Assembly (NCBI RefSeq): GCF_000374445.1
Contig: NZ_KB894415.1
Span: 62,001 to 126,000, forward strand
DNA length: 64,000 nucleotides
DNA from: Actinokineospora enzanensis DSM 44649
GTDB taxonomy: Bacteria; Actinomycetota; Actinomycetes; Mycobacteriales; Pseudonocardiaceae
Direction of reading: 5' to 3'
Shown here: positions 1 through 21,968 of the stretch, one piece after another
Position numbering within the stretch: the first letter of the stretch is position 1
Layout of the letters: every line of letters starts with the position of its first letter
The notes under the pieces: generated by a model
What the model saw: only the letters and a program-made list of their open reading frames with translations
Database searches by the model: none
What the model was told of the DNA's origin: nothing
Position numbers and translations under genes: made by a program

Positions 1-432
1 GTAGTCGCCGAGATCGGTGAACGCGGCGATGTCGTCGACCCGCTCCTGCATCTCCTTGCGGGTCATGCCCAGGAACAGACCGCGGATCAGGATGTTCTCC
101 AGACCGGAGATCTCCGGGTCCATGCCGACCGCGAGGTCGAACACCGGTGCGATCTTGCCGTTGATCTCGGCGGTGCCCCGGGTCGGCTCGTAGATGCCGG
201 ACAGCAGCCGTAGCAGCGTGGACTTGCCCGCGCCGTTGTGGCCGACCAGCGCGACCCGGTCGCCCTCCTTGAGACTGAGGGTGATGTTGTCCAGTGCCTC
301 GATGATCGGCACCCGGGAGGCGTCGGAGATCTTGCCGCCGACCTTGCCGAGCACGGCCTTCTTCAGCGAACGCGTCTTGGCGTCGAAGATCGGGAAGTCG
401 ACGCACGCGTTGCGGACCTCGATGCTGACCAT
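1..432 (-). CDS. wzt: ABC transporter ATP-binding protein, polysaccharide export (Wzt-like), partial
   Basis: Energises export of a lipid-linked surface polysaccharide at the inner face of the membrane, with the permease encoded just upstream. The first 144 codons are in the window and the 3' part runs off the left edge. Reading from the ATG at 432, the protein shows the N-terminal strand (MVSIEVRNACVDF), the 'long linker' typical of Wzt/TagH ATPases (SLKKAVLGKVGG), and a Walker A motif GHNGAGKST at about residues 64-72. It lies 11 nt downstream of the Wzm stop, so the two are one operon. The nearest family member I recognise is mycobacterial Rv3781, the galactan exporter ATPase. Family call is firm. 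The substrate (galactan or another glycan) is inference from the neighbourhood. Confidence 0.9.
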   Translation of the reverse strand, partial: MVSIEVRNACVDFPIFDAKTRSLKKAVLGKVGGKISDASRVPIIEALDNITLSLKEGDRVALVGHNGAGKSTLLRLLSGIYEPTRGTAEINGKIAPVFDLAVGMDPEISGLENILIRGLFLGMTRKEMQERVDDIAAFTDLGDY

Positions 433-443
433 GTGCGCCTCGC

Positions 444-1355
444 TCAGACCCAGTAGGAAATGCGGGAACGGTAGTTGCGCATGGCCACCAGCGCCAGGGT
501 CCAGCCGACCACGGTGACCCCGCCCGCGACCGCCCAGTGCGTCCAGCTCTGCTGGCCACCGATCAGCGGCGCGCGCAGGATCTCGATGAAGTGGTAGAGC
601 GGGTTCAACTCGATGATCAGGTGCTTCCAGTCGCCCGGACCGAGCTTGGCGGTCAGCACGTCGGTCGGCCAGACGATCGGGGTGGCGTAGAACAGCAGGT
701 TGGTGAGCGCGTTCACGACCGGCGGGATGTCCCGGTAGCGGGTGCTGATGATGCCGAACAGCAGGCTGACCCAGCCGCCGTTGAGCGCGATGAGCATGAA
801 CGCCGGGATGGCCAGCAGCACCGACCAGCTCAGGCCAGGCTGGACGATGCCCTTCTCGGAGAGCGTGTACGCGTGGTCCAGCGCCCCGAAGGAGATCGCC
901 AGGACGACGAAGTACACCAGCATGTTGTGCACCAGCATCAGCGTCTGCCGCCACACCGTGCGCAGCGCGTAGACCGACAGCGGCGCGGGCAGGTGCTTGA
1001 TCAGGCCCTCGTTCGAGACGAAGGTCTCCGAGCCCTCCAGCAGGCAGCCCAGGATGAAGCCCCACACGATGAAGCCGACGGTGAGGTACGGCAGGAACGT
1101 GCTCATGTCCGAGCCGAACAGCTGGGAGTAGATGAACCCCAGTCCGGCCGCGGTCACGCCCATGCTCAGGGTGATCCACAGCGGGCCGATCACCGAGCGG
1201 CGGTAGCGCTGCTTGATGTCCTGCCAACCGAGGTGCCCCCACAGCTCGCGGGCGGCGAGGCCTGCGCGAATGTCCTGCGCCGCTCGCGCCCAGCTACGAC
1301 CGGCGTGGGCCACCACCGGGCCGGGGGGGATATCTACCGCGCTCATTGCCTGCAC
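444..1355 (-). CDS. wzm: ABC-2 type polysaccharide export permease (Wzm-like)
   Basis: Membrane subunit of the exporter formed with the adjacent Wzt-like ATPase. The 303-residue protein has about six hydrophobic segments after a cytoplasmic N-terminus. That N-terminus contains the sequence ELWGHLGWQDIKQRYRRSV, which is characteristic of ABC-2/Wzm permeases. The order permease then ATPase matches mycobacterial Rv3783/Rv3781, where the pair moves lipid-linked galactan across the membrane; there a GlfT1 gene lies between them, which is absent here. The start is uncertain: GTG at 1355 or ATG at 1346 (MSAVDI), neither with a strong ribosome-binding site. It is transcribed away from the nonulosonate cassette, with 69 bp between the two starts. 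Confidence 0.9.
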   Translation of the reverse strand: MQAMSAVDIPPGPVVAHAGRSWARAAQDIRAGLAARELWGHLGWQDIKQRYRRSVIGPLWITLSMGVTAAGLGFIYSQLFGSDMSTFLPYLTVGFIVWGFILGCLLEGSETFVSNEGLIKHLPAPLSVYALRTVWRQTLMLVHNMLVYFVVLAISFGALDHAYTLSEKGIVQPGLSWSVLLAIPAFMLIALNGGWVSLLFGIISTRYRDIPPVVNALTNLLFYATPIVWPTDVLTAKLGPGDWKHLIIELNPLYHFIEILRAPLIGGQQSWTHWAVAGGVTVVGWTLALVAMRNYRSRISYWV

Positions 1356-1424: not shown

Positions 1425-2633
1425 ATGACGGCCGGCAGCATGGTTGCCGTGCGCGACCACCGGATACTCCCCGCAACCGTCGCCGTCGTGCCCGCGCGGG
1501 CCGGATCGAAGGGCGTGCCGGGAAAGAACCTGGCCAGAGTGGGTGGCGTGCCGTTGGTGGCGCGGACCGTGCACGCTCTGCTGTCCGCGAACCGGGTGAA
1601 CGAAGTCATGGTGAGCACGGACAGCGACGAGATCGCCGGGGTCGCGGCCGCCGCTGGCGCCACGGTCGTGCATCGACCCGTCACCCTGTCGGGGGATGCA
1701 GCGACTTCGGAGTCGGCGGTGCTGCACGCCCTCGACGGGCTCGGGGCGGATCCGGACACGGTGTTGCTGGCGCAGTGCACGTCACCGTTCCTGACGCCCG
1801 AGACCGTCGACGCGGTGGTCGGCAAGGTCCGCGACGAGGGCTTCGACTCGGTGTTCACCGGCACGCGGGTGCACGAGTTCCTCTGGCGGCCCGCGGCCGA
1901 CGGGACCGTGACCGGGGTCAACCACGACGTCCGGCACCGGCCGCGACGACAGGACCGCGACCCGGAGTTCCGCGAGACCGGCGCGCTGTACGGGATGCGC
2001 GTCGCGGGCCTGCGCGCCGCCGGGCACCGGTTCTTCGGCCGGACCGGGCTGGTCGAGGTGGCCTGGGCGGACGCCCTGGAGATCGACACCGCGGCCGAGC
2101 TGGAGCTGGCCCGTCGGATCGCCGCCGGGCGGGCCGCGCCGGTGCCGATGGACGTGGACGCGCTGGTGACCGACTTCGACGGCGTGCACACCGACGACCG
2201 GGCGCTGGTGCTGCAGGACGGCACCGAGGGCGTGCTGGTCAGCCGCTCGGACGGGGCCGGGGTGGCCGCCCTGCGGGCCGCGGGCGTGCCGGTGCTGATC
2301 CTGTCGGTGGAGCTGAACCCGGTGGTCGCGGCCCGCGCGCGCAAGCTCGGCGTGGAGGTCGCGCACGGCGTGGCCGACAAGGCGGAGCGGCTGCGGGCCT
2401 GGCTCGCCGAGCGTGGGCTCTCCCCCGCACGGGTGGCCTACGTGGGCAACGACCTGCGGGATCTCGACTGCCTGGAGCTGGTCGGCTGGCCGGTGGCGGT
2501 CGCCGACGCCCGGCCGGAAGTGCGCGCGGTGGCTAGGGTCGTGTTGACGAGCGGTGGCGGCGCGGGCGCGGTCCGTGAGGCCGCCGACCTGATCCTGGCC
2601 GCCCGCGCCTCCGGAGGTGACGCCAACCGATGA
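1425..2633 (+). CDS. neuA: CMP-nonulosonate cytidylyltransferase fused to a HAD phosphatase
   Basis: Predicted to activate a nonulosonic acid (sialic acid or KDN type) with CTP, and also to dephosphorylate its 9-phosphate precursor. The N-terminal half carries the cytidylyltransferase P-loop-like motif VVPARAGSKGVPGKN (about residues 21-35) and LAQCTSPFLTPE. From about residue 244 a KdsC-like HAD domain follows, with all four motifs: DFDGVHTD (both Asp, about 250 and 252), a Ser after the LIL strand, Lys in VADKAERL, and YVGNDLRDLD. Its length of 402 aa is about twice a stand-alone NeuA and resembles animal CMAS, which has a C-terminal HAD-like module. The ATG at 1425 is chosen; ATG 1440 is an alternative. 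It overlaps the next gene by ATGA. The exact sugar cannot be read from sequence. Confidence 0.85.
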   Translation: MTAGSMVAVRDHRILPATVAVVPARAGSKGVPGKNLARVGGVPLVARTVHALLSANRVNEVMVSTDSDEIAGVAAAAGATVVHRPVTLSGDAATSESAVLHALDGLGADPDTVLLAQCTSPFLTPETVDAVVGKVRDEGFDSVFTGTRVHEFLWRPAADGTVTGVNHDVRHRPRRQDRDPEFRETGALYGMRVAGLRAAGHRFFGRTGLVEVAWADALEIDTAAELELARRIAAGRAAPVPMDVDALVTDFDGVHTDDRALVLQDGTEGVLVSRSDGAGVAALRAAGVPVLILSVELNPVVAARARKLGVEVAHGVADKAERLRAWLAERGLSPARVAYVGNDLRDLDCLELVGWPVAVADARPEVRAVARVVLTSGGGAGAVREAADLILAARASGGDANR

Positions 2634-3508
2634 GCAGCGCCGCACCGACCGTCGACTTAGCCGGCCGCGTGGTCGGCGCGGGCCACCCCGCCTACCTGGT
2701 CGCCGAGGCGGGCATCAACCACAACGGCGACCTCGACGTGGCGAAGCGGCTCATCGACGTGGCCGCGGACGCCGGGGCGGACGCGGTCAAGTTCCAGAAG
2801 CGCACGCCGGAGATCGCCACCCCGCCGGACATGCGCGCGACCCGCCGCGAGACACCGTGGGGCGAGATGAGCTACCTGGAGTACCGGCATCGCGTGGAGC
2901 TGGGCGCGGAGCAGTACGCGGAGATCGACCGGCACGCGCGTGCCCGCGGCATCGCCTGGTTCGCCTCCCCCTGGGACGTGCCGAGCGTGGAGTTCCTGGA
3001 GCGCTTCGACGTGCCCGCGTACAAGGTCGCCTCGGCCACGCTGACCGACACCGCGCTGCTGGCGGCCCTGCGCGCGACCGGCAAACCGGTGCTCGCCTCC
3101 ACCGGGATGTCGACCATGCCCGAGGTGGACCGGGCGGTCGCGGCACTCGGCACGGACCGGCTGGTGCTGCTGCACTCCACGTCGACCTATCCGTGCCCGC
3201 CAGAGGAATCGAACCTGCGCGCGATCGAGACGCTGCGGGACCGGTTCCCGGTGCCGATCGGCTACTCCGGACACGAGCGCGGCCTGCAGGTGTCGATCGC
3301 GGCGGTGGCGCTGGGGGCGTGCGTGGTGGAACGGCACGTGACGCTCGACCGGGCGATGTGGGGCTCGGACCAGGCGGCCTCGCTGGAACCGGAGGGACTA
3401 CGCAGACTGGTCCGCGACATCCGGATCGTGGAAACCGCATTGGGTGACGGCGTGAAACGGGTTTTCCCAGGTGAAACGGGCCCTCGAAAACGTTTGCGTC
3501 GCACATGA
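2630..3508 (+). CDS. neuB: Nonulosonic acid synthase, NeuB/NANS family
   Basis: Condenses phosphoenolpyruvate with a hexose or hexosamine (mannose- or ManNAc-type, free or 6-phosphate) to make a nine-carbon sialic-type acid. NeuB barrel motifs are present: AEAGINHNGDLDVAKRL (about 24-40), KFQKRTPE, ASATLTD, STSTYPCPPEESNLRAI and ERHVTLDRAMWGSDQAASLE. The segment GYSGHERG followed by WGSDQAASLEP resembles animal N-acylneuraminate-9-phosphate synthase more than free-sugar NeuB, which typically has GYSDHT. At 292 aa it stops right after the barrel, so the C-terminal SAF/antifreeze domain of most NeuB proteins is missing. It begins at the ATGA overlap with neuA and has GGAGG about 12 nt upstream. 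With the fused phosphatase next door, a 9-phosphate route is plausible. Confidence 0.87.
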   Translation: MSSAAPTVDLAGRVVGAGHPAYLVAEAGINHNGDLDVAKRLIDVAADAGADAVKFQKRTPEIATPPDMRATRRETPWGEMSYLEYRHRVELGAEQYAEIDRHARARGIAWFASPWDVPSVEFLERFDVPAYKVASATLTDTALLAALRATGKPVLASTGMSTMPEVDRAVAALGTDRLVLLHSTSTYPCPPEESNLRAIETLRDRFPVPIGYSGHERGLQVSIAAVALGACVVERHVTLDRAMWGSDQAASLEPEGLRRLVRDIRIVETALGDGVKRVFPGETGPRKRLRRT

Positions 3509-3598
3509 GGGTGAATTCCGGGCCATTTCCCGATTCGCCGGGCCCGCGCCCGGCGTTTTACCCTTGCCAGCCCCCCAGACCAGTCCCCCGAGGCCCCC

Positions 3599-4282
3599 GT
3601 GACAATTCTGCTCGGCCCGCGCGAGGCGCGACCGGTGCCTGACCCGGCCCGAACCACGCTCGCCGCCACCCTCGCCGCGTACGCCCGACACGACCCGCCC
3701 CGCACCATCGCGGTCGTCGGCAACGCCCCGCTGCCCCCCGACCCGACCCGCGCCGCCGCCATCGACGCCGCCGACCTGGTCATCCGGATGACCAGCTTCG
3801 CCATCGACACCGACGGCCCGGCCACCTACGGCAAGCGCACGGATGTCGTGGTGCTGCATCGCGGCGTGATCGCCAGCCCGCACACCTTCACCGACTACAC
3901 GTCCCGCCTGTATCTGCTGGTCGAGCCGGGCCGACTGCACTGGGAACCGGAGACCATCCCGGACTGGTGGCCAGCCGACCTCGGTTTCGTGCCGATCCCG
4001 AACCGCGAGTTCACCGTCCCGCTCAACAACCTGCTCGGCTTCGTCCCGGAAACGGTCGCCTGGTCCACCACCGGCACCCTCGCCACCTACCTGGTCACGG
4101 ACCTGTTCCCGACCGCGCACGTCCTGCTCACCGGCATGTCCATCATCGACCACCCACACCAGACCGTGTTCGCGCACGCCTGGGGCCAGGAAGTCCCGGT
4201 CACCGCAGAACACCGCCTCGCGGACGAGGCCGCCCTCCTGCGAACCTGGCGGGACACCGGCAGGATCGAGGTGTGCCCATGA
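3599..4282 (+). CDS. GT29-like sialyltransferase candidate
   Basis: Probably transfers the CMP-activated nonulosonic acid to a glycan. The 227-residue protein shows an L-sialylmotif-like stretch: IAVVGNAPLPPD (about 37-48), then AIDAADLVIRMTSFA (54-68), then YGKRTDVVVLHRGV. An S-sialylmotif-like stretch follows (WSTTGTLATYLVTDLF at 155-170, then VLLTGMSIID), and a late His in HRLADEAALL (about 205). The order and character of these blocks fit GT29-type sialyltransferases, though it is shorter and has no signal anchor. The start is GTG at 3599, 90 bp after neuB, and it overlaps the next gene by ATGA. This assignment is by eye from motifs and context; other GT-A/GT-B folds are not excluded. Confidence 0.6.
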   Translation: MTILLGPREARPVPDPARTTLAATLAAYARHDPPRTIAVVGNAPLPPDPTRAAAIDAADLVIRMTSFAIDTDGPATYGKRTDVVVLHRGVIASPHTFTDYTSRLYLLVEPGRLHWEPETIPDWWPADLGFVPIPNREFTVPLNNLLGFVPETVAWSTTGTLATYLVTDLFPTAHVLLTGMSIIDHPHQTVFAHAWGQEVPVTAEHRLADEAALLRTWRDTGRIEVCP

Positions 4283-4761
4283 CCCCCGGCCGGAGAACCC
4301 TCCACGCCGCCGCCTGCCACCTGGCCCGGCCCCTCTGGCGCCGGCTGAGACCCCGGTTGGAGGCGATCGCGCGGGAACAGGTGGCCCCGATCGCGGAGAG
4401 ATCCGAGGCCGCGGCCGCGCGGTTGCACTCGGACCTCGATTCCCTGCGGGGGGAACTGCGGGCCGAGGTGTCGTCGCTTGGCAGGCGGCTCGACGATCTG
4501 GACTCGACGGTCGAGTGGCTCAACGGGGAGCACCGGCGGATCGCGCCACAGTTGGCGGCTGTGGAGTCGCGGTTGGCTGAGGTGGAGCACCGGTTGGGGC
4601 GGACTGGGTGTGTCGAGGGGGTGGCGCCGGATGAGTTGGGGCATGTCACGGCGTTGGTGGACGAGATTCGGTCGGAGCACGCGCGGGTACGGACTCGATT
4701 GAGTTTGGTGGCGCGGTACGAGGAACGCCTGACCCGCCTGGAAGAGACGCGCGGGGCTTGA
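4279..4761 (+). CDS. Coiled-coil protein of unknown function in the nonulosonate cassette
   Basis: I do not recognise a family. The 160-residue protein has a short basic N-terminus (MTPGRRTLHAAACHLARPLWRR... to about residue 25). It then runs almost entirely as charged heptad-like helix: ERSEAAAARLHSDLDSLRGE, LGRRLDDLDSTVEWLNGEHR, VESRLAEVEHRLGR, and ends in ARYEERLTRLEETRGA. There are no membrane segments, Cys pairs or catalytic motifs. Translation is coupled to the sialyltransferase-like gene by an ATGA overlap, so it could be a scaffold or partner for that enzyme. That role is inference from position only. It converges with the next gene, 35 bp away. Confidence 0.7.
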   Translation: MTPGRRTLHAAACHLARPLWRRLRPRLEAIAREQVAPIAERSEAAAARLHSDLDSLRGELRAEVSSLGRRLDDLDSTVEWLNGEHRRIAPQLAAVESRLAEVEHRLGRTGCVEGVAPDELGHVTALVDEIRSEHARVRTRLSLVARYEERLTRLEETRGA

Positions 4762-5407: not shown

Positions 5408-5677
5408 ATGAGCGAACAGCGGCACGCATTGATCCTGCACCTGGCCACCGGTGGCGAGCCGGTGGTGTTCACCCTGTCCGACCGGGGGGCCAAGAGCCTG
5501 GGGTCCCGGTTGTCCGTCCTGATGGGCTCCGGCGGGGTCGACACCATCGAGCTCGCCGACGGCAACCACGCGGCGGTCAACTTCGCGCACGTCGCGAGTG
5601 CGCACCTCGATGTGCTGCCAGCGCACGTCCGGGTCTACGGGAGCCCGGAGAAGCGGACCCACGGGTTCGGCGCCTAG
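5408..5677 (+). CDS. Small hypothetical protein (89 aa)
   Basis: I do not recognise a family. From the ATG at 5408 it encodes [20 protein letters not shown] and continues with short beta-like stretches ([43 protein letters not shown]). This suggests a small soluble alpha/beta protein without a signal peptide or membrane span. The stop codon (5675-5677) overlaps the stop of the convergent GtrA gene (5674-5676). Codon composition matches its neighbours, which supports a real gene, but there is no functional clue. Confidence 0.6.
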
Positions 5678-6087
5678 CGGAACACCACGGTTCGCAGCAG
5701 CACGAAGTTGATCACGGTGGCCAGGCCCTGGGCGATCACCCAGGCCACCGCGTGTTCGAAGCGGAAGTCCGGCAGGAGGGTGAGCATCAGCGCGTTGGTG
5801 CCCACGTTCACGAAGAACGTCACCGTGTACAGCAGTGCGAAACTACCCGCCTGGCCCGCGCCCCGGCTCTTGGCGTCGGTGAAGGTGAACCGCTTGTTCA
5901 GGAAGTACGCCGTGGTCGTACCGATCACGAAACTGACCGCCTTGGCCAGGTGCACCCACACGCCCAGCTGCAGCAACAGCGAGTACACCCCGAAGTCGAC
6001 CAGCGCGCAGAAGCCGCCGACGAGCACGAACCTGATCAGCTGGGTGACCAGCCCGGTCCGCTGGATATCGTTCCCGACCTCGGCCAT
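5674..6087 (-). CDS. GtrA-like membrane protein (Rv3789-type)
   Basis: Predicted four-helix membrane protein of 137 aa in the GtrA/DPMS_TM family. These proteins sit beside polyprenyl-phosphate-sugar enzymes and help present or translocate the lipid-linked sugar. The four hydrophobic segments are visible ([76 protein letters not shown]). Conserved GtrA features are the FVLVGG...D opening, NKRFTF and the terminal RTVVFR. It is divergent from dprE1 as in mycobacteria, where Rv3789 lies beside dprE1 and acts in arabinogalactan assembly. The start ATG at 6087 is chosen because it immediately precedes the first helix. Confidence 0.88.
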
Positions 6088-6162: not shown

Positions 6163-7530
6163 GTGGAGCCAGCGACGTTCGAGACCCGCACCCTGACCGG
6201 CTGGGGGCGGACCGCGCCCACGGTGGCCACGGTGGCCGCGCCCACCAACCCCGACCACGTGCTCGACGCGCTCAAGCAGGCCGGGCCGCGCGGGATCATC
6301 GCCCGGGGGCTTGGTCGGTCCTACGGCGACCCGGCGCAGAACGCGGGTGGCCTGGTCGTGGACATGACCGGGGTCAACCGGGTGCACTCCATCGACGCCG
6401 ACACCGGGCTGGCCGTGCTCGACGCAGGCGTCAACCTCGACCAGCTGATGCGGGCCGCGCTGCCGTTCGGGCTGTGGGTGCCCGTGCTGCCCGGCACCCG
6501 GCAGGTCACCATCGGCGGTGCGATCGCCTCCGACATCCACGGCAAGAACCACCACTCGGCGGGCAGCTTCGGCAACCACGTGCGGGAGATGGAGCTGCTC
6601 ACCGCCGACGGGCAGGTGCGCACGCTCACCCCGGACGGCCCGGAGTCGGCGCTGTTCTGGGCGACCGTCGGCGGCATGGGCCTGACCGGCATCATCCTGC
6701 GCGCCACGGTCGCGCTCCAGCACACCGAGAGCGCGTACTTCCTCAGCGACACCGACCGCACGGCGAACCTGGACGAGACGCTGGAGATCTTCTCCAACGG
6801 TTCGGACGACGACTACGACTACTCGATGGCGTGGTTCGACTCGATCAACACCGACGGGCGGCTCGGCCGCGCGGTGTTCTCCCGGGGTTCGCTGGCCAAG
6901 CTGGACGAGCTCCCCAAGAAGTACCGCAAGGACCCGCTGCGGTTCGACGCGCCGCAGCTGCTCACGCTGCCGGACATGTTCCCCAACGGTCTGGCGAACA
7001 AGCTCACCTTCCGCCTGCTCGGCGAGGCCTGGTACCGCAAGGCCCCCAAGCAGGCGCGCGGTCAGGTGATGAACCTGACCGCCTTCTACCACCCGCTGGA
7101 CATGTTCGGTGAGTGGAACCGGGCCTACGGCTCGCACGGCTTCCTGCAGTACCAGTTCATCATCCCGTTCGGCGCGGACGCCGAGCTGCGCTCGATCGTG
7201 CGGCAGATGGCCGAGTCCGGGCACGTGTCGTTCCTGAACGTGCTCAAGCGGATGGGCGCGGGGAACCGCGCGCCGCTGTCGTTCCCCACCCCGGGCTGGA
7301 CGATCACGGTGGACTTCCCGATCGTGCCTGGTCTGCACGAGTTCTGCGCCCGGCTGGACGAGCAGGTGCTCGCCGCGGGTGGGCGGCTCTACCTGGCCAA
7401 GGAGTCGCGCACCACGCCGGAGACCTTCCACAGCATGTACCCGCGGCTGGGCGAGTGGCGGGAGATCCGCCGCTCGGTCGACCCGGACGGCCTGTTCACC
7501 TCGGACCAATCGCGAAGGCTCGGACTTTGA
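6163..7530 (+). CDS. dprE1: Decaprenylphosphoryl-beta-D-ribose 2'-oxidase
   Basis: FAD enzyme that oxidises decaprenylphosphoryl-ribose (DPR) to the 2-keto intermediate, the first half of epimerisation to decaprenylphosphoryl-arabinose, the arabinan donor. At 455 aa (GTG start) it is close to the mycobacterial 461 aa. Visible features are the FAD-binding [16 protein letters not shown] (about 43-58), [19 protein letters not shown] and [13 protein letters not shown]. The C-terminal block includes [20 protein letters not shown] and [20 protein letters not shown]. At the position of M. tuberculosis Cys387 (motif GWNICVDFP) this protein has Thr (GWTITVDFP, Thr382). It overlaps dprE2 by TTGA, so the pair is translationally coupled. 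Confidence 0.96.
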
Positions 7531-8282
7531 TCAACGCAGTCGGTACCCCGCAGTCGCTGCTCCTGCTCGGCGGCACGTCCGAGATCGGGCTGGCCATCGC
7601 CGAGAACTACGCCCGGCAGCGGTCGCTGACCGTGACCCTGGCCGCCCGCCCGTCCGAGCGGCTGGACGCGGCCGCCGAGAAGCTGCGCGGCCTGGGCGCC
7701 ACGGTGCGCACCATCGCGTTCGACGCGCTCGACCTGGACTCGCACCAGAAGGTGGTCGATGACGCGTTCGCCGAGGGTGACGTGGACGTGACCGTGCTGG
7801 CGTTCGGGCTGCTCGGGGATGCCGAGCAGGCCTGGCAGGACCACGCGACCGGGGTCGAGCTGGCGCAGGTCAACTACACCGCGCCGGTGTCGCTGGGGAT
7901 CGCGCTGGCGCAGCGGCTGCGCAAGCAGGGGCATGGGTCGGTGGTGGCGCTGTCGTCGGTGGCGGGTGAGCGGGTGCGCCGGTCGAACTTCGTCTACGGC
8001 TCGACCAAGGCCGGGTTCGACGGGTTCTTCCTTGGCCTTGGCGAGGCGCTGCGGCCCGACGGCATCCACGTGACCGTGGTGCGGCCCGGGTTCGTGCACA
8101 GCAAGATGACCGAGGGCATGAAGGCGGCGCCGCTGGCGACCACCCCGGACAAGGTGGCCGAGGTGGTGGTCAACGCCGTGCGGGCCCGCCGCGAGCTGGT
8201 GTGGGCGCCTGGCCAGTGGCGGCTGGTCATGTCGGTGCTGCGGCACATCCCGCGACCGATCTTCCGCAGGCTGCCGATCTGA
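7527..8282 (+). CDS. dprE2: Decaprenylphosphoryl-2-keto-pentose reductase
   Basis: NADH-dependent SDR that reduces the DprE1 product to decaprenylphosphoryl-arabinose. The 251-residue sequence tracks mycobacterial DprE2 closely: [21 protein letters not shown] at the N-terminus (TTG start at 7527 overlapping the dprE1 stop), [32 protein letters not shown], the catalytic [19 protein letters not shown] (Ser, Tyr, Lys), and the terminal [15 protein letters not shown]. The TTG start is preferred because it reproduces the family's N-terminus. In mycobacteria the next gene is aftA followed by embCAB; here a SARP regulator follows instead. Confidence 0.96.
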
Positions 8283-8461: not shown

Positions 8462-11400
8462 GTGCGGATTCTGGTGCTGGGCCCGGTCGAGATCGCCTCC
8501 GGCGAGTTCGGGGGCGAGTCCCACGGTCTTGTCGGCGCCAAGCCGCGGGCGCTGCTCTCGGCGTTGCTGCTGCAAGCCCGGCAGGTGGTGCCCAGTCAGC
8601 GGCTGGTCGACCTGCTCTGGTCGGGCGCGCCGCCGGGCTCGGCGACCATGCTCCTGCACACGTACGTCGCGACATTGCGCCAGGTACTGGGCGGTCGGTC
8701 GCGGATCGTCACCCGGGCGCCGGGCTACCTGCTGGACGTCGACCCGACGGACAGCGACCTGGAGAGCTTCGACAACCACCTCTACGCCGCCCGGCACGCC
8801 GAGCGGCAGATCGACAACGACGCCGCCGCAGGCCTGTACCGGCGCGCGCTGCGGCTGTGGCGGGGCGCCGCGTTCGCCGATGTCGACGTGGACTTCGCGC
8901 AGATCCGGGCCCGGTCGCTGGCGAGTGAGCGGCTGAGCGCGGAAGAGGGGCTGGCGCGCTGCCTGCTGCGCACCGGTCTGGCCGCGGACGCGGTGAACCG
9001 GCTGGTCGGGCTGGTCGACGCGCACCCGCTGCGCGAGCACACGCGCGGGCTGCTCATGCGCGCGCTGGTGGACAGCGGTCGGTCCGGGGAAGCGCTGGAG
9101 GTCTATCGCGATGGGCGGACCAGGATCCGCGCCGAGCTTGGCGTGGAACCGGGCGCTGAGCTGCGGCAACTGCACGCGACGATCCTGAGCGGCACGCCCC
9201 GGCCGCGGGGCAGGCAGGCCCGGCTGGCGCGGCCCGCGGGCGAGCCGGTCGACGCCGTGCCGCGGCACCTGCCGCCGGACATCCCCGACTTCACCGGGCG
9301 CGCGGAACAGCTGCAGATGATCACGGGGCGGTGTGGCAGCGACGCGTCCGGCGCCGTGGTGATCTCCGGGCCAGCGGGCGCGGGCAAGACGGCGCTGGCG
9401 GTGCGCGCCGCGCACCAGGTGCGCGCGCAGTTCCCGGACGGGCAGCTGTTCGCCGACCTGCGCGGCGGCGAACGCGGCGCGTTCGAAATGCTGGGCCGGT
9501 TCCTGGGCGAGCTGGGCACGGCCGCGGGTCAGCTGCCCGCGGACACCGAGGGCCGGGCCGGGCTGTTCCGCACCCGGATCGCGGACAAACGGCTGCTGGT
9601 CGTGCTGGACAACGTGCGGCACGAGGAGCAGGTGCGCGGCCTGTTGCCGGACACACCGAACTGCCTGCTGATCGTCACCAGCCGGACCAGGCTGCCCGGG
9701 TTGCCCGCGACGCTGCCGATAGAGCTGGCCCCGCTGTGCACCAGCATGTCGGTGCGGATGCTGGGCAACATGGTCGGCACCGCCCGGGTGTCCGACGACG
9801 CGGCGGCCGCGGAGACCATCGCGACGCTGTGCGCGGGCAGCCCACTGGCGGTGCGCGCGGCCGGGGCGAAACTGCTGGCCCGCCCGCACTGGCCACTGCG
9901 CGCGCTGGCCGGTCGGCTGTCCGACGAACGTCGCGCACTGGACGATCCGACCACCTACGGCTGCGCGATCCGGGCCGGGCTGCGGCTCAACTACGCCGAG
10001 CTGGACGACCCGCACCGGCGCGTGTTCCACCTGCTGGCCCTGCTCGACCTACCGGACTTCGGCTCGTGGACGGCCGCGCCGCTGCTGGAGATCTCCCTGG
10101 AGCAGGCCGAGGACGTGCTGGAACGGCTGGTGGACCTGCGGCTGCTTGAGGTCGCGGGCATCGACGCGATCGGCCGGGTGCGCTACCGCTTCCACGACCT
10201 GGTCCGCGACTTCGGCACCGAGCAGGCGCTGCGGGACGAGCCTGCCGACGCGGTGGCGGCCGCGGTGTGCAGGCTGCTGGCGACGTGGATGGCGCTGGTG
10301 GACGCGGGCGCCAACAAGCTGCCCCGGGTCACCCTGGGACTGCGGCCGCGCCCTCGTCCCGCGGTCGACCTGGACGCGCGGCTGCTGGCCGAGACCGAGT
10401 CGGACCCGTCCGGCTGGTTCCGCTCGGAGACGGCGGCGGTGGTGCGGGCCGTGGAACGGTCGTACGAGCTGGGCATCGACGAGATGACCACTACGTTGAT
10501 CAGCTCCCTGCTGTCCTCCCCGTTCGCCGTGCGCAACGAGTTCGACGGCTGGCAGCGCACGCATGAGGTGGCTCTCGCCGCGGCCCGCGACAGCGGCGAC
10601 TCGCAGGCCGAGGCCACGGTGCTGACCGGGCTCGGCCAGCTTTACTACGAGAAGGACGAGTTCGCCACCGCCCTCGCCTTCTTCACCCAGGCTGCCGAGG
10701 GCGCCAAGCGGGTCGGCGATGCCGCGACGAAGGCCGTGGCCCTGGTCGGGATCGGCACGGTCTACCGCGACCTGGCCGACTTCCGCCAGGCCCGCACCCA
10801 CCTGCGGCGCGCCGTCGAACTCGCCGAACACACCGGCGAACCGAGCGTGCGCAACGCCGCCGACTACGGCCTCGCCGCCAGCTGCCGCGAACTGGGCGAG
10901 TTCCAGTCCGCCATCGACCGCTTCCAACGGTGCGTCACCGGCTACCGCGAACTGGACGACCGCCGCGGCGAGGGCCTGGCGATACGCGGACTGGGCCTGT
11001 GCCACCGCGCGGTGGGTGAGTTCGACCTCGCGGCCGACCTCTGCGACGAGGCGGAACGGATCCTGCTCGCGGCGGGCGACCGGCTGGGAGCGGCGTACGC
11101 GGCGCAGTCGGTGGCCAAGGCGCGGATCCGACAGGGGCGGCTGCCGGGGGTCGCGGAATCCCTCGATCGGTCACTGACGTGGTGCAGCACCCACGGCGAC
11201 CGGTTCGGGGTCGCGCTCGTCACCCGAACCCTGGGCGAACTGTCGTTGGCGGCCGGGGACTCGTGCACGGCGAGGGTGACACTGTCCGAGGCGTTGGCGC
11301 GGTGGACGGAACTGGGATTGCCGCTGTGGCAGGCGCGCACGCTACGAGACCTGGCCGCGGCCGAGGTGACCGACGACCCGGCTGCCGGGGTGGCGACGTG

Positions 11401-11593
11401 GGCTCGGGCTCGGGCGCTGTTCGCGCAGACGGGCACGCGGGAGATCGGGGAACTGGCCGGGTTGACGCCTGCGGAGTGGCTCGCGGAGGTTCGGGCGAAG
11501 GTCGCGCCTGGCCGGACCGAGCCGAACACCGGGGAAGTCGTGGCGATTCGGGGGCATGCGCTGGTGGGTGGGCGGAGGTCTAGCGCGAGCTAG
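8462..11593 (+). CDS. SARP/AfsR-type transcriptional regulator with NB-ARC and TPR domains
   Basis: Large cytoplasmic regulator (1043 aa from GTG 8462, which has a G-rich ribosome-binding site). Order of domains: a winged helix of the OmpR type (MRILVLGPVEI to about 95, including LVGAKPRALLSALLLQ); a bacterial transcriptional activation domain (about 95-245, with DLESFDNHL and LGVEPGAELRQLHATIL); an NB-ARC ATPase with Walker A GPAGAGKTAL (about 302-311) and RLLVVLDNV; a helical linker; and TPR repeats from about residue 710. This is the AfsR layout that controls secondary metabolism in streptomycetes. No biosynthetic cluster lies alongside, so its targets are unknown. It interrupts the usual dprE2-aftA-emb order. 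Its 3' end overlaps the convergent 50-aa gene by 14 bp. Confidence 0.92.
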   Translation: MRILVLGPVEIASGEFGGESHGLVGAKPRALLSALLLQARQVVPSQRLVDLLWSGAPPGSATMLLHTYVATLRQVLGGRSRIVTRAPGYLLDVDPTDSDLESFDNHLYAARHAERQIDNDAAAGLYRRALRLWRGAAFADVDVDFAQIRARSLASERLSAEEGLARCLLRTGLAADAVNRLVGLVDAHPLREHTRGLLMRALVDSGRSGEALEVYRDGRTRIRAELGVEPGAELRQLHATILSGTPRPRGRQARLARPAGEPVDAVPRHLPPDIPDFTGRAEQLQMITGRCGSDASGAVVISGPAGAGKTALAVRAAHQVRAQFPDGQLFADLRGGERGAFEMLGRFLGELGTAAGQLPADTEGRAGLFRTRIADKRLLVVLDNVRHEEQVRGLLPDTPNCLLIVTSRTRLPGLPATLPIELAPLCTSMSVRMLGNMVGTARVSDDAAAAETIATLCAGSPLAVRAAGAKLLARPHWPLRALAGRLSDERRALDDPTTYGCAIRAGLRLNYAELDDPHRRVFHLLALLDLPDFGSWTAAPLLEISLEQAEDVLERLVDLRLLEVAGIDAIGRVRYRFHDLVRDFGTEQALRDEPADAVAAAVCRLLATWMALVDAGANKLPRVTLGLRPRPRPAVDLDARLLAETESDPSGWFRSETAAVVRAVERSYELGIDEMTTTLISSLLSSPFAVRNEFDGWQRTHEVALAAARDSGDSQAEATVLTGLGQLYYEKDEFATALAFFTQAAEGAKRVGDAATKAVALVGIGTVYRDLADFRQARTHLRRAVELAEHTGEPSVRNAADYGLAASCRELGEFQSAIDRFQRCVTGYRELDDRRGEGLAIRGLGLCHRAVGEFDLAADLCDEAERILLAAGDRLGAAYAAQSVAKARIRQGRLPGVAESLDRSLTWCSTHGDRFGVALVTRTLGELSLAAGDSCTARVTLSEALARWTELGLPLWQARTLRDLAAAEVTDDPAAGVATWARARALFAQTGTREIGELAGLTPAEWLAEVRAKVAPGRTEPNTGEVVAIRGHALVGGRRSSAS

Positions 11594-11732
11594 TGGTGCC
11601 GACCACGCCCAAGGCGACCAGCACCACGCCGCCGACGACCAGGCAAGTGGTGCCGATCCGGCTCACGATCGCGTCGACCTGGTCCAGCGGCGCCGATGTC
11701 ATCGCCGGGCGGCGGACGTCCAGGAACCTCAC
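11580..11732 (-). CDS. Small single-span membrane protein (50 aa)
   Basis: A short gene encoding MRFLDVRRPAMTSAPLDQVD followed by one hydrophobic helix (TTCLVVGGVVLVALGVVG) and a short tail TTSSR. The GTG start at 11732 has GGGAG about seven bases upstream, a good ribosome-binding site, and codon use fits the genome. It is transcribed opposite to the SARP gene and its last 14 bp overlap that gene's end. No family recognised; it could be a small envelope or regulatory protein. Confidence 0.55.
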   Translation of the reverse strand: MRFLDVRRPAMTSAPLDQVDAIVSRIGTTCLVVGGVVLVALGVVGTTSSR

Positions 11733-11752
11733 GGCGGACTCCCGGTGAACGG

Positions 11753-11786
11753 ACAAGGCCCACGCCTGGGTGGGCGTGGGCCTTGT
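11753..11786 (-). terminator. Strong hairpin terminator downstream of ubiA
   Basis: A perfect 14-bp inverted repeat (ACAAGGCCCACGCC / GGCGTGGGCCTTGT) with a 6-nt loop lies 26 bp past the ubiA stop on the minus strand. It separates the ubiA-PAP2 operon from the small membrane-protein gene. Confidence 0.75.
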
Positions 11787-11811
11787 CGGCGCCGAAGGTC
11801 AGGCGAGAGAT

Positions 11812-12801
11812 CTAGAGGTAGATCGAGAGGGCCACGCAGGCGATCCAGCCTGCGCCCAGCACCTGGAGGATGCGGTCCTTGAGCACGATGTCCTCGGGTG
11901 AACCCGCGTGACCACCGTCGATGTCGACCGCGTAGCGCAGGACGGCGACCACGAACGGCACGATCGAGATCATCGCCCAGACCGAGTTGTCCGGCACCCG
12001 GTCCCGGATGCCCGGCGCCCACAGGCTGTAGCTCATGATCATGATGGCGGCCGAGGTGGCCCAGACGAACCGCAGGTAGCTGGCCGAGTACTTGGCCAGC
12101 GAGGCGCGGATCTTGGCGCCGGTCTTCTCGAACAGGATGATCTCCGCGTAGCGCTTGCCGGAGACCATGAACAGCGAGCCGAACGCGGTGACCAGCAGGA
12201 ACCACTGGGACAGCGGGATGCCCGCGGCCACGCCACCGGCGATGCTGCGCAGCAGGAAGCCGGAGGCCACGATGCACAGGTCGATCACCGGCTGGTGCTT
12301 GAGGCCGAGACAGTAGCCCAGCTGCACGCCCGCGTAGACCACCAGCACGATCACCAGCGGCCAGCCCGCGACCAGGCCGATGCCGACCGAGGCCAGGAAC
12401 AGCACCACCGAGGCCGCGTAGGCGACCTGGACCGGCACGATGCCCGCCGCGATCGGGCGGAAGCGCTTCTTCGGGTGCTCCCGGTCGGCCGCCACGTCGA
12501 TGGCGTCGTTGACCAGGTACACCGCCGACGAGACCAGGCAGAACGCGATGAACGCGGTGGCCGCGTCCAGCAGCACGGAGCTGTCGAAGACCCGGTGGCC
12601 GGTGAACGGCGCGGCCAGGACCAGCACGTTCTTGACCCACTGTCGCGGGCGCATGGTGCGGATCAGGCCAACCACCACGTTCTGCCGCGGCGGGTCGGCC
12701 TGCGGGGTGTGCTCCGTCACCGGGGTGACCTCCGCCACCTCGGGTGCGGGCTCGGCGGGCTCGGACTCCTGCACCTCGTCCCCGACCTTGCCCGCGCTCA
12801 C
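11812..12801 (-). CDS. ubiA: Decaprenyl-phosphate phosphoribosyltransferase (DPPR synthase)
   Basis: UbiA-superfamily membrane prenyltransferase that joins phosphoribosyl pyrophosphate to decaprenyl phosphate, giving the ribose donor later epimerised by DprE1/DprE2. The 329-residue protein has an acidic, proline-rich N-terminal extension (about 45 residues) before MRPRQWVKNVLVLAAPFTG. The two Asp-rich sites are NDAIDVAADREHPKKRFRP (about 100-118) and a later GLKHQPVIDLCIVASGFLLR. Around nine hydrophobic helices follow. The GTG start overlaps the stop of the PAP2 gene by GTGA, so both are co-transcribed, as Rv3806c and Rv3807c are in mycobacteria. Confidence 0.95.
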   Translation of the reverse strand: MSAGKVGDEVQESEPAEPAPEVAEVTPVTEHTPQADPPRQNVVVGLIRTMRPRQWVKNVLVLAAPFTGHRVFDSSVLLDAATAFIAFCLVSSAVYLVNDAIDVAADREHPKKRFRPIAAGIVPVQVAYAASVVLFLASVGIGLVAGWPLVIVLVVYAGVQLGYCLGLKHQPVIDLCIVASGFLLRSIAGGVAAGIPLSQWFLLVTAFGSLFMVSGKRYAEIILFEKTGAKIRASLAKYSASYLRFVWATSAAIMIMSYSLWAPGIRDRVPDNSVWAMISIVPFVVAVLRYAVDIDGGHAGSPEDIVLKDRILQVLGAGWIACVALSIYL

Positions 12802-13334
12802 CGGGCACCGGCCTTGGCCCGCCGGGAGATCCGGCGGCGCAGCACCCCGCCGACCAGCGCGCCGAGCGCGGAGCCCGCGAGCACGTCGGTCGGGTAGTGC
12901 ACGCCCAGGACCAGGCGGGACACCAGCATCGGCGGCACCAGCACGGGCACCAGGCTGCGCCCGGTGAGGCCGGAGTACAGCACCGCGGCGGCCGTGGTGG
13001 AGGTGGCGTGCGAGGACGGGAAGCTGAGCTTGCTCGGCGTACCCACCAGCACCTGCACGGACGGGTCGTCCGGCCGGGGCCTGCGCACGACCCGCTTCAC
13101 CGCGATGGAGGCGGCGTGCGCGGCGACCACGCCACCGGCTGCGAGCAGCCAGTCGCGCCTGCGCTTGCGGTCGACGACCGCGCCGACGAGGCCGATGGCG
13201 AACCACCCTGCGCTGTGCTCGCCGAACAGGGACAGCCCGCGGGCCGCCGTCACCACCGGCGGCTTCCCGATGGCGCCCTGCACTCGGCTCAGCGCGGCGG
13301 TCTCCCGCCCGGCGGCGGACGCGCTGCGGTCCAC
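12798..13334 (-). CDS. PAP2-family phosphatase (DPPR phosphatase candidate, Rv3807c type)
   Basis: Likely removes the 5-phosphate from decaprenylphosphoryl-5-phosphoribose to give DPR. All three PAP2 signatures are present: KRVVRRPRP, FPSSHATS and SRLVLGVHYPTDVLAG, with several membrane helices around them. The start is GTG at 13334 because GGGAGG lies seven bases upstream; the longer frame to 13373 has no such site. The 178-residue protein is coupled to ubiA by an overlap. Direct substrate evidence is from its mycobacterial counterpart's position, not from motifs. Confidence 0.9.
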   Translation of the reverse strand: MDRSASAAGRETAALSRVQGAIGKPPVVTAARGLSLFGEHSAGWFAIGLVGAVVDRKRRRDWLLAAGGVVAAHAASIAVKRVVRRPRPDDPSVQVLVGTPSKLSFPSSHATSTTAAAVLYSGLTGRSLVPVLVPPMLVSRLVLGVHYPTDVLAGSALGALVGGVLRRRISRRAKAGAR

Positions 13335-13408
13335 GTACGTACCTCCCGTTATGGCCTGACACTCCCCCGACACAGCATCGCATCGGGGCAGCCGCCGACC
13401 TGTTTCGC

Positions 13409-15915
<2,507 letters not shown>

Positions 15916-17882: not shown

Positions 17883-19781
17883 TTATTTGCCGTTCTCGAA
17901 GACCTTGCGCCAGGACTCGACCGAGGTGAGCTCGGGCTGCGCGGCCCGCCAGGTCTGCTGTGCCGCGGGCCACTCGGCGACCAGCCTGCGGTAGGTGGCC
18001 GCGGACCGCTTGGCCAGCTCGCGGAAGACCTTCGGGTCACGCCTGCGGAAGGCCACGCCGCTGCCGTCGGGGTTCGACACCGTGGCGCTGTCCAGGTTGC
18101 CCAGCAGGAACCACAGCGCGCTGCCCGCGGGCACGTTCACCTGCGGACGCTCGGAGGCGCCCGTGTCCGGGGCACGCAGGTTGTGCAGCACCGCCTTGGA
18201 CGCCTGTGCGGTGATCTTCAGCGGGTGCACCGGCGGGCGCAGCATGGCCTCGGCGTGCACCGCGTCCAGCGTGGGCGGCGGGAACTCGCCCGCCGACGGC
18301 AGGGTCTGCGCGTCGGTGTAGCCCCGGCGCAGCTGCTGCACCTGCGGCAGGCTGTCGCCGAGCAGGTCGAAGAGCCGGTCCGGGCCCGCCAGGAAGTCCT
18401 CCACGGCCTTGAGCTCGATGGCCACCGCCGAGTACTCCATCGACAGCAGCCGCCGGATGGTGGCCCGCATGCCCTGCTTCAACAGCGTCCTGCGGTGCTC
18501 GACCGGGGCGTACAGCGCGGCCACGATCAACCGGTTGCGCAGGTGGAAGTAGGCGGTCCAGTCCGAGTTGTCGTTCTTGTCCGTCCACGGCATGTGCCAC
18601 ACCGCCGAGCCCGGCAGGGTCACCGTGGGGTAGCCCTTCGCCAGCGCCCGCATCGAGTACTCGGCGTCGTCCCACTTGATGAACAGCGGCAGCGGCAGAC
18701 CGTTCTCCTCCACGATCTCGCGTGGGAACAGACACATCCACCAGCCGTTGTAGCTGGACTCGATGCGCCGGTGCAGCTCGGTCGTCTCGCGCAGCGACTC
18801 GGTGCCGAAGTCGTGATCGGTGACCGCGCCGGGCGCCGCCCGCCAGGTGAACGAGCCCTGGTCGATGACCTCGCCCATGCTGTGCAGCCGGGCCTTCGCC
18901 TGCAGGTTGAGCATCTGGCTGCCCACGATCACCGGCTTCGTGGCGGCTGCGGCGAACCGGCTGGCGCGCAGGATCGAGTCCGGCTCCAGCGAGATGTCGT
19001 CATCCATGAGCAGGATCTGGTCGACGTCGGAGTGCTCAAGCGACTCGTAGAAGGCGCGGCTGAACCCGCCAGAACCCCCCAGGTTGCCCTGCTCGATGAC
19101 CTCCAGCCGGTCCCCGAGCAGCGCCTTGGCCTCGGCGAAGCGCGGGTGCCCGGAGATCTTCTTGGTGCCCTGGTCGGCCACGTACACCCGGCTGACCACG
19201 TCCAGCACGGCCTCGTCCTCGCCCAGTGCCAGCAGCGAGGCGACGCAGTCGTCCACTCGGTTGAAGGTGGTGGTGCCGATGGACAGCTTCTTCGCGGGCA
19301 GTGCCAGGTCGGTGGCCCAGTGCGCGTCCGCGATCTCCAGCGTGGAGTCGTCGGTGAACACGTCGAACCAGATCCAGCCGCCGTCCTCGAACGGCGCCAG
19401 CCCGACCCGGAACTCCAGGGACTGCACACCGCCCTCGGTGCGCACCGCCTGACCGGTGATGTGCACCTGGTCGCCGTTGGGCTTGGACCGGTACAGGTCG
19501 ACCCGGCCGCCGCCGCGCACGTCGAGCCGCAGCAGCACCTCGGTCACCCTGGTCCAGCGCTTCCAGTAGCTGGCCGGGAAGGCGTTGAAGTAGGAGGCGA
19601 ATGACACCCGGGCCGAGGCGGGGACGGTCACCGCCGTGCGGGAGGACACGTGGCAGTGCGCGGTGCCCTGCTCGTCCAGGTAGAGCGGGCGCACGTCCAC
19701 CGGGTCGCTGTCCCGGGGCAGGATCACCCGCTGCAGCGCCACCGGCGCCCCGGTCGGTTTCGACTTCCCCTGCTCGGTCAC
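17883..19781 (-). CDS. glfT2: Galactofuranosyltransferase GlfT2
   Basis: Processive GT2 enzyme that elongates the galactan with alternating beta-1,5 and beta-1,6 galactofuranose from UDP-Galf at the membrane's inner face. The 632-residue length fits the mycobacterial enzyme (about 637). An N-terminal beta domain carries FNAFPASYWKRWTRVTEVLL. The GT-A core has IGTTTFNRVDDC, the metal-binding LLMDDDI (Asp 260-262), IKWDDAEYSMRALAKGYPTV and the catalytic His in GSAVWHMPWTDKND (about 396). The C-terminal helical block includes WFLLGNLDSATVSNPDGSGV, as in the mycobacterial protein. It is 79 bp downstream of a paralogue. The ATG at 19781 is preceded by GGAGG about 6-8 bases away. Confidence 0.93.
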   Translation of the reverse strand: MTEQGKSKPTGAPVALQRVILPRDSDPVDVRPLYLDEQGTAHCHVSSRTAVTVPASARVSFASYFNAFPASYWKRWTRVTEVLLRLDVRGGGRVDLYRSKPNGDQVHITGQAVRTEGGVQSLEFRVGLAPFEDGGWIWFDVFTDDSTLEIADAHWATDLALPAKKLSIGTTTFNRVDDCVASLLALGEDEAVLDVVSRVYVADQGTKKISGHPRFAEAKALLGDRLEVIEQGNLGGSGGFSRAFYESLEHSDVDQILLMDDDISLEPDSILRASRFAAAATKPVIVGSQMLNLQAKARLHSMGEVIDQGSFTWRAAPGAVTDHDFGTESLRETTELHRRIESSYNGWWMCLFPREIVEENGLPLPLFIKWDDAEYSMRALAKGYPTVTLPGSAVWHMPWTDKNDNSDWTAYFHLRNRLIVAALYAPVEHRRTLLKQGMRATIRRLLSMEYSAVAIELKAVEDFLAGPDRLFDLLGDSLPQVQQLRRGYTDAQTLPSAGEFPPPTLDAVHAEAMLRPPVHPLKITAQASKAVLHNLRAPDTGASERPQVNVPAGSALWFLLGNLDSATVSNPDGSGVAFRRRDPKVFRELAKRSAATYRRLVAEWPAAQQTWRAAQPELTSVESWRKVFENGK

Positions 19782-21777: not shown

Positions 21778-21968
21778 GACTGGTTCGGTCCTCCAGGGAG
21801 CCGGGCACGGCCGTCTCGGTGGGCGACCGGTCGCGCGGCACCCGTTGCGGCGCGGGGGCCTTCGCGGACCGATCGATTGGGCTGGTGCGGGCACACCCAG
21901 GCGCCCGGGGCACACCAAGGCTACCCGCTCCGTTCGGCCTCACCCGGTCGGCTGATCCCCAACCACGA

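Follow-up and report, generated by a model that had tools for sequence, protein, structure and literature searches.

Introduction

Arabinogalactan is usually regarded as a nearly constant core polymer. Its galactan is described as being built on decaprenyl phosphate at the cytoplasmic side and then moved out by Wzm-Wzt, and passages of the same source treat the setting of galactan length as still under exploration (PMC10951656). Here we analyse a window of 64,000 nucleotides from Actinokineospora enzanensis DSM 44649 (contig NZ_KB894415.1, positions 62,001 to 126,000), in which a four-gene cassette for the synthesis and proposed transfer of a nonulosonic acid lies beside the galactan exporter. 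Mycobacterial loci for galactan export and arabinogalactan synthesis (Wzm-Wzt, GlfT1, GlfT2, DprE1/E2) have their counterparts in the window as equivalogs plus a GlfT2-like pair. To our knowledge, no nonulosonic acid genes occur at the mycobacterial locus, whereas in Pseudonocardiaceae the cassette is added between wzm and a gene that we take to be bpa-like.

Four other kinds of system resemble parts of this locus. Streptomyces coelicolor provides a case of 2-keto-3-deoxy-D-glycero-D-galacto-nononic acid (Kdn) in the wall of an actinomycete, in a teichulosonic acid (PMC7831098) assigned to the genes SCO4873-SCO4882 (PMC13011467). There, however, Kdn belongs to a separate polymer, whereas here the module lies at the galactan exporter, together with a stand-alone protein that has the fold of glycosyltransferase family 29 (GT29) and a helical partner protein. 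The GT29 sialyltransferases (ST3Gal, ST6GalNAc, ST8Sia) share with the window protein the fold, the layout of motifs L and S, and an invariant His and His-x4-Glu. GT29 enzymes of bacteria are reported from Proteobacteria in passages of PMC5811610, whereas the window protein comes from Actinomycetota, has 227 amino acids and falls under the Pfam cut-off; the donors of cassette transferases, judged by context, would also include pseudaminic acid. O antigens of Klebsiella and Escherichia coli that are exported by ATP-binding cassette transporters carry 3-deoxy-D-manno-octulosonic acid (Kdo) or methyl-phosphate caps, and the capping enzymes have an extended, chain-measuring coiled coil (PMC11231755). 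The terminators WbdD, WbbB and Klebsiella O4 ORF7/GT137 are like the cassette in combining a cytidine monophosphate (CMP)-ulosonate transferase (a proposed one in the cassette) with a long helical part beside Wzm/Wzt. They are unlike it in being one polypeptide rather than two proteins, in having GT99 or GT137 rather than GT29 folds, and in that not all exporter-bearing relatives have the cassette; by gene content, a cap would not be needed for export across the family as a whole. In O-serotype switching of Gram-negative bacteria, the genes of a surface-sugar pathway are replaced together with their transferase gene while the flanks stay conserved; the flank in the window, in contrast, is a galactan exporter, and the lineage is Gram-positive.

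Searches of the open-access literature gave, among the hits listed, no report of a three-pathway swap with transferase and helical protein at a galactan exporter. The parts are of known kinds, and what appears to be new is their combination and swapping at this site. The gene families, the GT29 fold, the near-constant pairing of transferase and helical protein, the three kinds of pathway, their co-inheritance and the common site are reported below as computed results.

Gene content of the cassette

The cassette (1425-4761, plus strand) was described in the initial annotation as four co-directional, mostly overlapping genes, and this arrangement is present: all four are open frames without internal stops, with overlaps of 4 bases at the 1/2 and 3/4 junctions and a gap of 90 bases between genes 2 and 3. 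Gene 1 (1425-2633) encodes a NeuA-type CMP-nonulosonate synthetase joined to a HAD domain resembling KdsC and Kdn-9-phosphatase, which upholds the proposed fusion of cytidylyltransferase and phosphatase. Residues 19-145 match PF02348 CTP_transf_3 (E 9.7e-24); the synthetase part spans about residues 19-230 and has as its top PDB match the CMP-N-acetylneuraminic acid (Neu5Ac) synthetase 1qwj (E 1.1e-30). The HAD part (about residues 243-395) matches NF007019 (4.6e-26) and NF058599 (7.2e-23), both well under the curated cut-offs, and its top PDB match is 3mmz (E 5.7e-49). Gene 2 (2630-3508) belongs to the NeuB family (PF03102, E 3.3e-84), in agreement with the sialic-acid-type synthase first proposed. 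Its match to TIGR03569 stops at model position 275 of 329, so the protein lacks the C-terminal part, presumably a SAF domain, and by its group-specific residues it appears to be of the Kdn-9-phosphate synthase type. The synthase, phosphatase and CMP-synthetase domains of a Kdn-9-phosphate pathway are thus all present, with PF03102, PF02348 and the HAD family over Pfam cut-offs. The NCBIfam equivalog cut-offs are not reached (NF058599, 81.5 of 180 bits; TIGR03569, 278.7 of 399.65 bits), and “Kdn-type” therefore refers here to architecture and residues rather than to a filed equivalog.

Gene 3 (3599-4282, GTG start) has no Pfam match at E 0.1, and PF00777 Glyco_transf_29 is reached at E 0.18 (11.6 bits, cut-off 23); 29 of 43 sequences match that model at E <= 1 (best 2.2e-6). 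Because the cut-off is missed, we call the protein GT29-fold or GT29-like rather than a filed member. The fold predicted for it is that of solved GT29 enzymes. All 16 matches at E <= 0.001 in a fold search are titled sialyltransferase except 5cxy, whose title is only “glycosyltransferase in complex with inhibitor” and which we take to be ST8SiaIII. Residues N42, D56, R63, G78, T158, G159, G179, H193, H205 and E210 are invariant in 43 of 43 sequences and lie at the places expected for sialylmotifs L (about residues 37-84), S (about 155-181), III and VS, as we would assign these by eye. An alignment of 24 sequences has 53 invariant columns, and one of 43 sequences has 33. These features support the prediction that gene 3 encodes a GT29-type transferase. 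The sialyltransferase-like identity suggested earlier holds in fold and invariant residues; of the computational checks named with it, structure prediction agrees and the family profile falls short.

In another family of the class, locus L175 (6035-8488) encodes a protein of 817 residues that combines a GT29 domain (44.5 bits, cut-off 23) with a group 1 (GT4-type) glycosyltransferase domain and adjoins a NeuA-HAD/NeuB Kdn module. With its two domains it is a candidate for a polymerase that builds a teichulosonic acid from Kdn and hexose, and its position is in keeping with the use of Kdn by GT29 enzymes.

Distribution and exchange of pathways

The transferase was sought in a family sample of 150 genomes, the window genome included, and gene 1 in a class sample of 296 genomes. 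In addition, the best 80 of 89 loci found make up a set of named loci, which with the window gives 81 rows, with flanks of up to 10 kb. The transferase occurs in 35 of the 150 family genomes, own genome included, and the pair of genes 3 and 4 is kept in all 34 neighbourhoods of relatives from this sample, confirming that the cassette is more than a chance grouping. A gene 4-type protein lies beside the transferase in 79 of the 80 named loci, a set that overlaps the 34 neighbourhoods.

Three kinds of pathway accompany this pair. The 81 rows comprise 44 pseudaminic-acid, 15 NeuC-type and 14 Kdn-type loci, and 8 without an assigned kind (L071, L082, L120, L135, L136, L143, L144 and L148, some at contig ends); these are not counts of events, because many rows are close, even near-identical, relatives, mostly Amycolatopsis. 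When one example of each kind was scanned, PseB, PseI and NeuC scored over their equivalog cut-offs; PseC and PseG scored under them, as did, at the NeuC-type locus, NeuA and NeuB. The 11 named Actinokineospora loci include five Kdn-type, four NeuC-type and one pseudaminic-acid locus, the eleventh being near a contig end. Judged by GlfT1 and Wzt, the window genome has its closest named relatives in Actinokineospora.

The pathway module is exchangeable, and is swapped together with the transferase and the helical protein. Over 60 loci, the kind of pathway changes 4 times on the transferase tree, where the minimum possible is 2, and on the exporter tree (GlfT1 with Wzt) 9 times in careful trees and 10 times in a quick tree. 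If L141 is left out, a branch supported at 100/100 separates the 22 Kdn- and NeuC-type transferases from the rest. Among pairs of loci whose exporters share 90% identity or more, mean identity is 88% for the transferase and 73% for the helical protein where the pathway is the same (197 pairs), and 50% and 29% where it is different (109 pairs). In the closest different-pathway pair, L079 and L098 of Amycolatopsis, the exporter proteins are 98% identical and the transferases 51%. Identities of transferase and helical protein are correlated at 0.92, and still at 0.92 when the exporter is taken into account.

Two other arrangements were seen among these loci. Sciscionella genomes G040 and G074 each have four Wzm-like matches and carry the transferase/helical pair with no synthase in reach. 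In Blastococcus L129 and L142, the transferase, helical protein and pathway adjoin a GtrA-like gene and what look by eye like purine genes.

A common site at the galactan exporter

Wherever a cassette locus has both genes in reach, the presumed bpa-like gene is on the same side of wzm (50 of 50), at a distance of 3.5-10.6 kb. For comparison, 20 family genomes were picked for absence of the transferase; in 19 of them the bpa-like gene is 0.13-2.7 kb from wzm, sometimes with another gene between, and the sole exception is L203, at 6.8 kb. The helical-protein profile has no match at E <= 0.1 in these 20 sites (best 0.11), and L203, with a PseG-like gene, is the one site among them where a nonulosonate gene was found. 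The neighbour of the bpa-like gene in the window genome is GlfT1, an order which suggests that the block of exporter and cassette is inverted there; such an inversion would explain why the cassette faces the genes for decaprenylphosphoryl arabinose (DPA). The initial annotation had placed the cassette between exporter and DPA genes, which is true of the window; across relatives, it is the galactan exporter that stays next to the cassette, and not the DPA genes.

The PseG-like gene of L203 (genome G003; 87% identity) lies in the wzm-bpa gap without transferase or synthase, adjoining a gene that by eye resembles a pyruvyltransferase. By gene content, this gap may hold a cassette that has decayed or one of another kind.

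The surrounding genes are those of an arabinogalactan locus, with Wzm, Wzt, GlfT1, DprE1, DprE2, decaprenylphosphoryl-5-phosphoribose (DPPR) synthase and Glf all over curated cut-offs. Divergent from gene 1 are the permease Wzm (444-1343, minus strand; NF050109, 421 bits, cut-off 380), the ATPase Wzt (1-432, minus strand, cut by the window edge; NF050108, 461 bits, cut-off 400) and, on the same side, GlfT1 (518 bits, cut-off 330). Wzt in full, as seen beyond the window edge in L068 (15645-16433), has 262 amino acids, of which residues 4-246 match the 244-position model, and so has no long C-terminal extension. Beyond the cassette lie a presumed GtrA-like membrane protein (5674-6087, minus strand; no NCBIfam match at E 1e-12), DprE1 (6163-7530, plus strand; 766 bits, cut-off 500), DprE2 (7527-8282, plus strand; 418 bits, cut-off 250), DPPR synthase (11812-12801, minus strand; 447 bits, cut-off 207), Glf (13409-14626, minus strand; 346 bits, cut-off 304) and two GlfT2-like proteins (17883-19781 and 19861-21918, minus strand; PF17994 Glft2_N, 190 and 81 bits, cut-off 26). 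Arabinogalactan is reported in some Pseudonocardiales in passages of PMC6194230, and for this strain it is predicted from its genes.

Proposed mechanism and acceptor

We favour, with somewhat better than even confidence, an exchangeable wall-decoration cassette that puts Kdn on galactan before export. In the cytoplasm, NeuB would condense mannose 6-phosphate and phosphoenolpyruvate to Kdn-9-phosphate, the fused HAD domain would remove the phosphate, and the NeuA domain would then yield CMP-Kdn, Kdn being the putative product. With the helical partner in a putative role of keeping it at or near the membrane, the GT29-fold enzyme would transfer Kdn to galactofuranose of the decaprenyl-linked galactan, both the transfer activity and this acceptor being putative. 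Wzm-Wzt would export the Kdn-bearing galactan, and arabinan addition and ligation to peptidoglycan would follow. Pairs of this kind in related genomes would use CMP-Neu/Leg-type (neuraminic or legionaminic) or CMP-pseudaminic acid, pathway, transferase and helical protein being exchanged as one block at the single site between wzm and the bpa-like gene. A GT29-fold enzyme and helical partner beside the exporter fit transfer to a lipid-linked chain. It is likely that a nonulosonic acid decorates the wall, and galactan is the probable acceptor. A role as cap plus ruler, drawn from an attractive analogy, is possible; the O-antigen comparison differs in the separate polypeptides, the lack of a long extension on Wzt and the 115 of 150 family genomes that have the exporter gene and no transferase.

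Several observations weigh against this reading, in addition to the sub-threshold PF00777 score of gene 3 and the many near-identical rows. Wzm is matched in 150 of 150 family genomes and the transferase is absent from 115 of them; the exporter thus persists in genomes that have no cassette. Wzm and GlfT1 are absent from 14 of the 80 named loci; seven of these have full 10 kb flanks (L087, L089 and L094 of Pseudonocardiaceae, L129, L130 and L142 of Blastococcus, and L147 of Schumannella), and contig ends truncate the remaining seven. The synthase was not seen in reach at seven of the 80: Sciscionella L135 and L136, L071 and L082 near contig ends, and Geodermatophilus L143, L144 and L148, which have a NeuA-like gene only, at the locus edge. 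L141 of Amycolatopsis arida (9995-14912) pairs a NeuC-type pathway with a transferase of the pseudaminic clade and has a left-over PseF-like gene. Donor choice is therefore not strict or the pathway swap was recent, and L141 looks like a recent swap. Locus L147 of Schumannella soli, which we take to belong to Microbacteriaceae, has the transferase and a full Pse set with neither helical protein nor exporter in its 10 kb flanks.

Exporter-less loci such as the seven with full flanks would be expected if another acceptor received the acid, be it a surface protein, a glycolipid or a separate polymer of the teichulosonic type, and if the wzm-bpa gap were no more than a site tolerant of envelope islands; we regard this as rather unlikely. 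It would also accommodate the NeuA-HAD modules found elsewhere in actinomycetes without a match to the transferase profile (12 of 13 neighbourhoods), the presence of other genes in the wzm-bpa gap at some of the 20 cassette-less sites, and the Kdn-galactose teichulosonic acid of S. coelicolor (PMC7831098; cluster SCO4873-4882, PMC13011467). Against it, the open reading frames of the window block include no polymerase, second glycosyltransferase or flippase of its own, and the exporter is near the transferase in 66 of the 80 loci, which include L137, L143, L144 and L148 of Geodermatophilaceae besides those of Pseudonocardiaceae.

The helical partner and a possible role in chain length

Gene 4 (4279-4761, plus strand) encodes 160 amino acids with weak Pfam matches, under cut-off, to coiled-coil families. 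Its predicted structure has helices at 3-108 (106 residues; if straight, about 16 nm long by arithmetic) and 117-159 (43 residues), with a mean predicted local distance difference test score of 92.3 and a single-chain predicted template modelling score of 0.52. The N-terminal start of the window protein is basic and amphipathic, and over 35 homologues seven residues are invariant, all within 134-155.

In a special case of galactan decoration, the non-reducing end of the chain would be capped by the acid, whether Kdn, pseudaminic acid or one of Neu/Leg type, with the GT29-fold enzyme as terminator and the helical protein as a coiled-coil ruler setting length, giving serotype-like galactan capping in Pseudonocardiaceae and Geodermatophilaceae. 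We put this forward as a doubtful extension. The long modelled helices, the pairing in 79 of 80 loci and the identity correlation, undiminished given the exporter, would suit such a role, as would Klebsiella terminators with an extended coiled coil, of which that of O4 is described as essential for export (PMC11231755), and the treatment of galactan size control as an open question in passages of PMC10951656. It is opposed by the separate polypeptides, a Wzt without a long extension, the family genomes with Wzm and no transferase, and L147, where transferase and Pse genes do without a helical protein. A 3.5-residue periodicity, matched by at most 5 of 500 shuffles, is found in only 14 of the 35 homologues, including the window protein, and not in the 21 others, a mixed picture for a coiled coil.

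Which acid is made

The same genes might make Neu5Ac, legionaminic acid or 3-deoxy-octulosonate instead of Kdn, which we think improbable. The HAD part scores higher against the KdsC model (91.6 bits) than against the Kdn-9-phosphatase model, and for the synthase the top-scoring model is that of Neu5Ac synthase, TIGR03569, all under cut-off. However, the synthase is of the NeuB family, the window genome gave no NanE match, and no NeuC-like epimerase was found in its assembly (8.1 Mb, 87 contigs, given as 99% complete), where the two Epimerase_2 proteins resemble WecB, under the WecB cut-off. The lack of a NeuC-type epimerase, noted originally for the window, thus extends to the genome.

The NeuA-HAD plus short NeuB architecture is widespread in the class: gene 1 is matched at E <= 0.001 by 150 of 296 genomes, mostly partially, and by manual count both of its domains are covered in one stretch at 46 listed places, own genome included. 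The window synthase has 292 amino acids, all 14 Kdn-type synthases have 288-296, and 12 adjoining NeuA-HAD fusions in other actinomycetes have 285-313; 59 NeuC- and Pse-type synthases have 340-375. At 27 positions the Kdn-type synthases and those of other actinomycete NeuA-HAD modules are set apart from the NeuC- and Pse-type ones. Presumably the S. coelicolor cluster holds exactly these NeuA-HAD and short NeuB genes. Kdn is thus the likeliest product of genes 1 and 2, supported indirectly by the shared residues, the lack of NanE and of a NeuC-like epimerase, and the Kdn in S. coelicolor wall teichulosonic acid (PMC7831098). Between the Kdn-9-phosphate and NeuNAc-9-phosphate routes offered in the initial annotation, these points favour the former.

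Elsewhere in the same genome, contig C29 (L067, 9251-10330) encodes a second NeuB-family protein (41% identity), flanked by genes that look by eye like those for a transketolase, a reductase, an ATP-grasp protein and a transporter; this region may be a natural-product cluster in which one step is nonulosonate-like.

That the cassette is a chance or inactive remnant of a wider cluster is very improbable: gene 3 alone has no confident sequence-level family match, but its columns stay invariant across homologues, the frames are open, and a pathway was assigned in 10 of the 11 Actinokineospora loci.

Significance

If galactan is decorated as proposed, an exchangeable, negatively charged acid would bring a novel type of variation to a core polymer of the wall, and GT29-fold enzymes would gain a role in Actinomycetota. 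Should the acid also cap the chain and the helical protein set its length, that polymer would differ in identity and length, like O antigens. Amycolatopsis strains with 98% identical exporters and different cassettes are natural experiments in such variation, which may, speculatively, bear on how phages and toxins recognise these genera of antibiotic producers.

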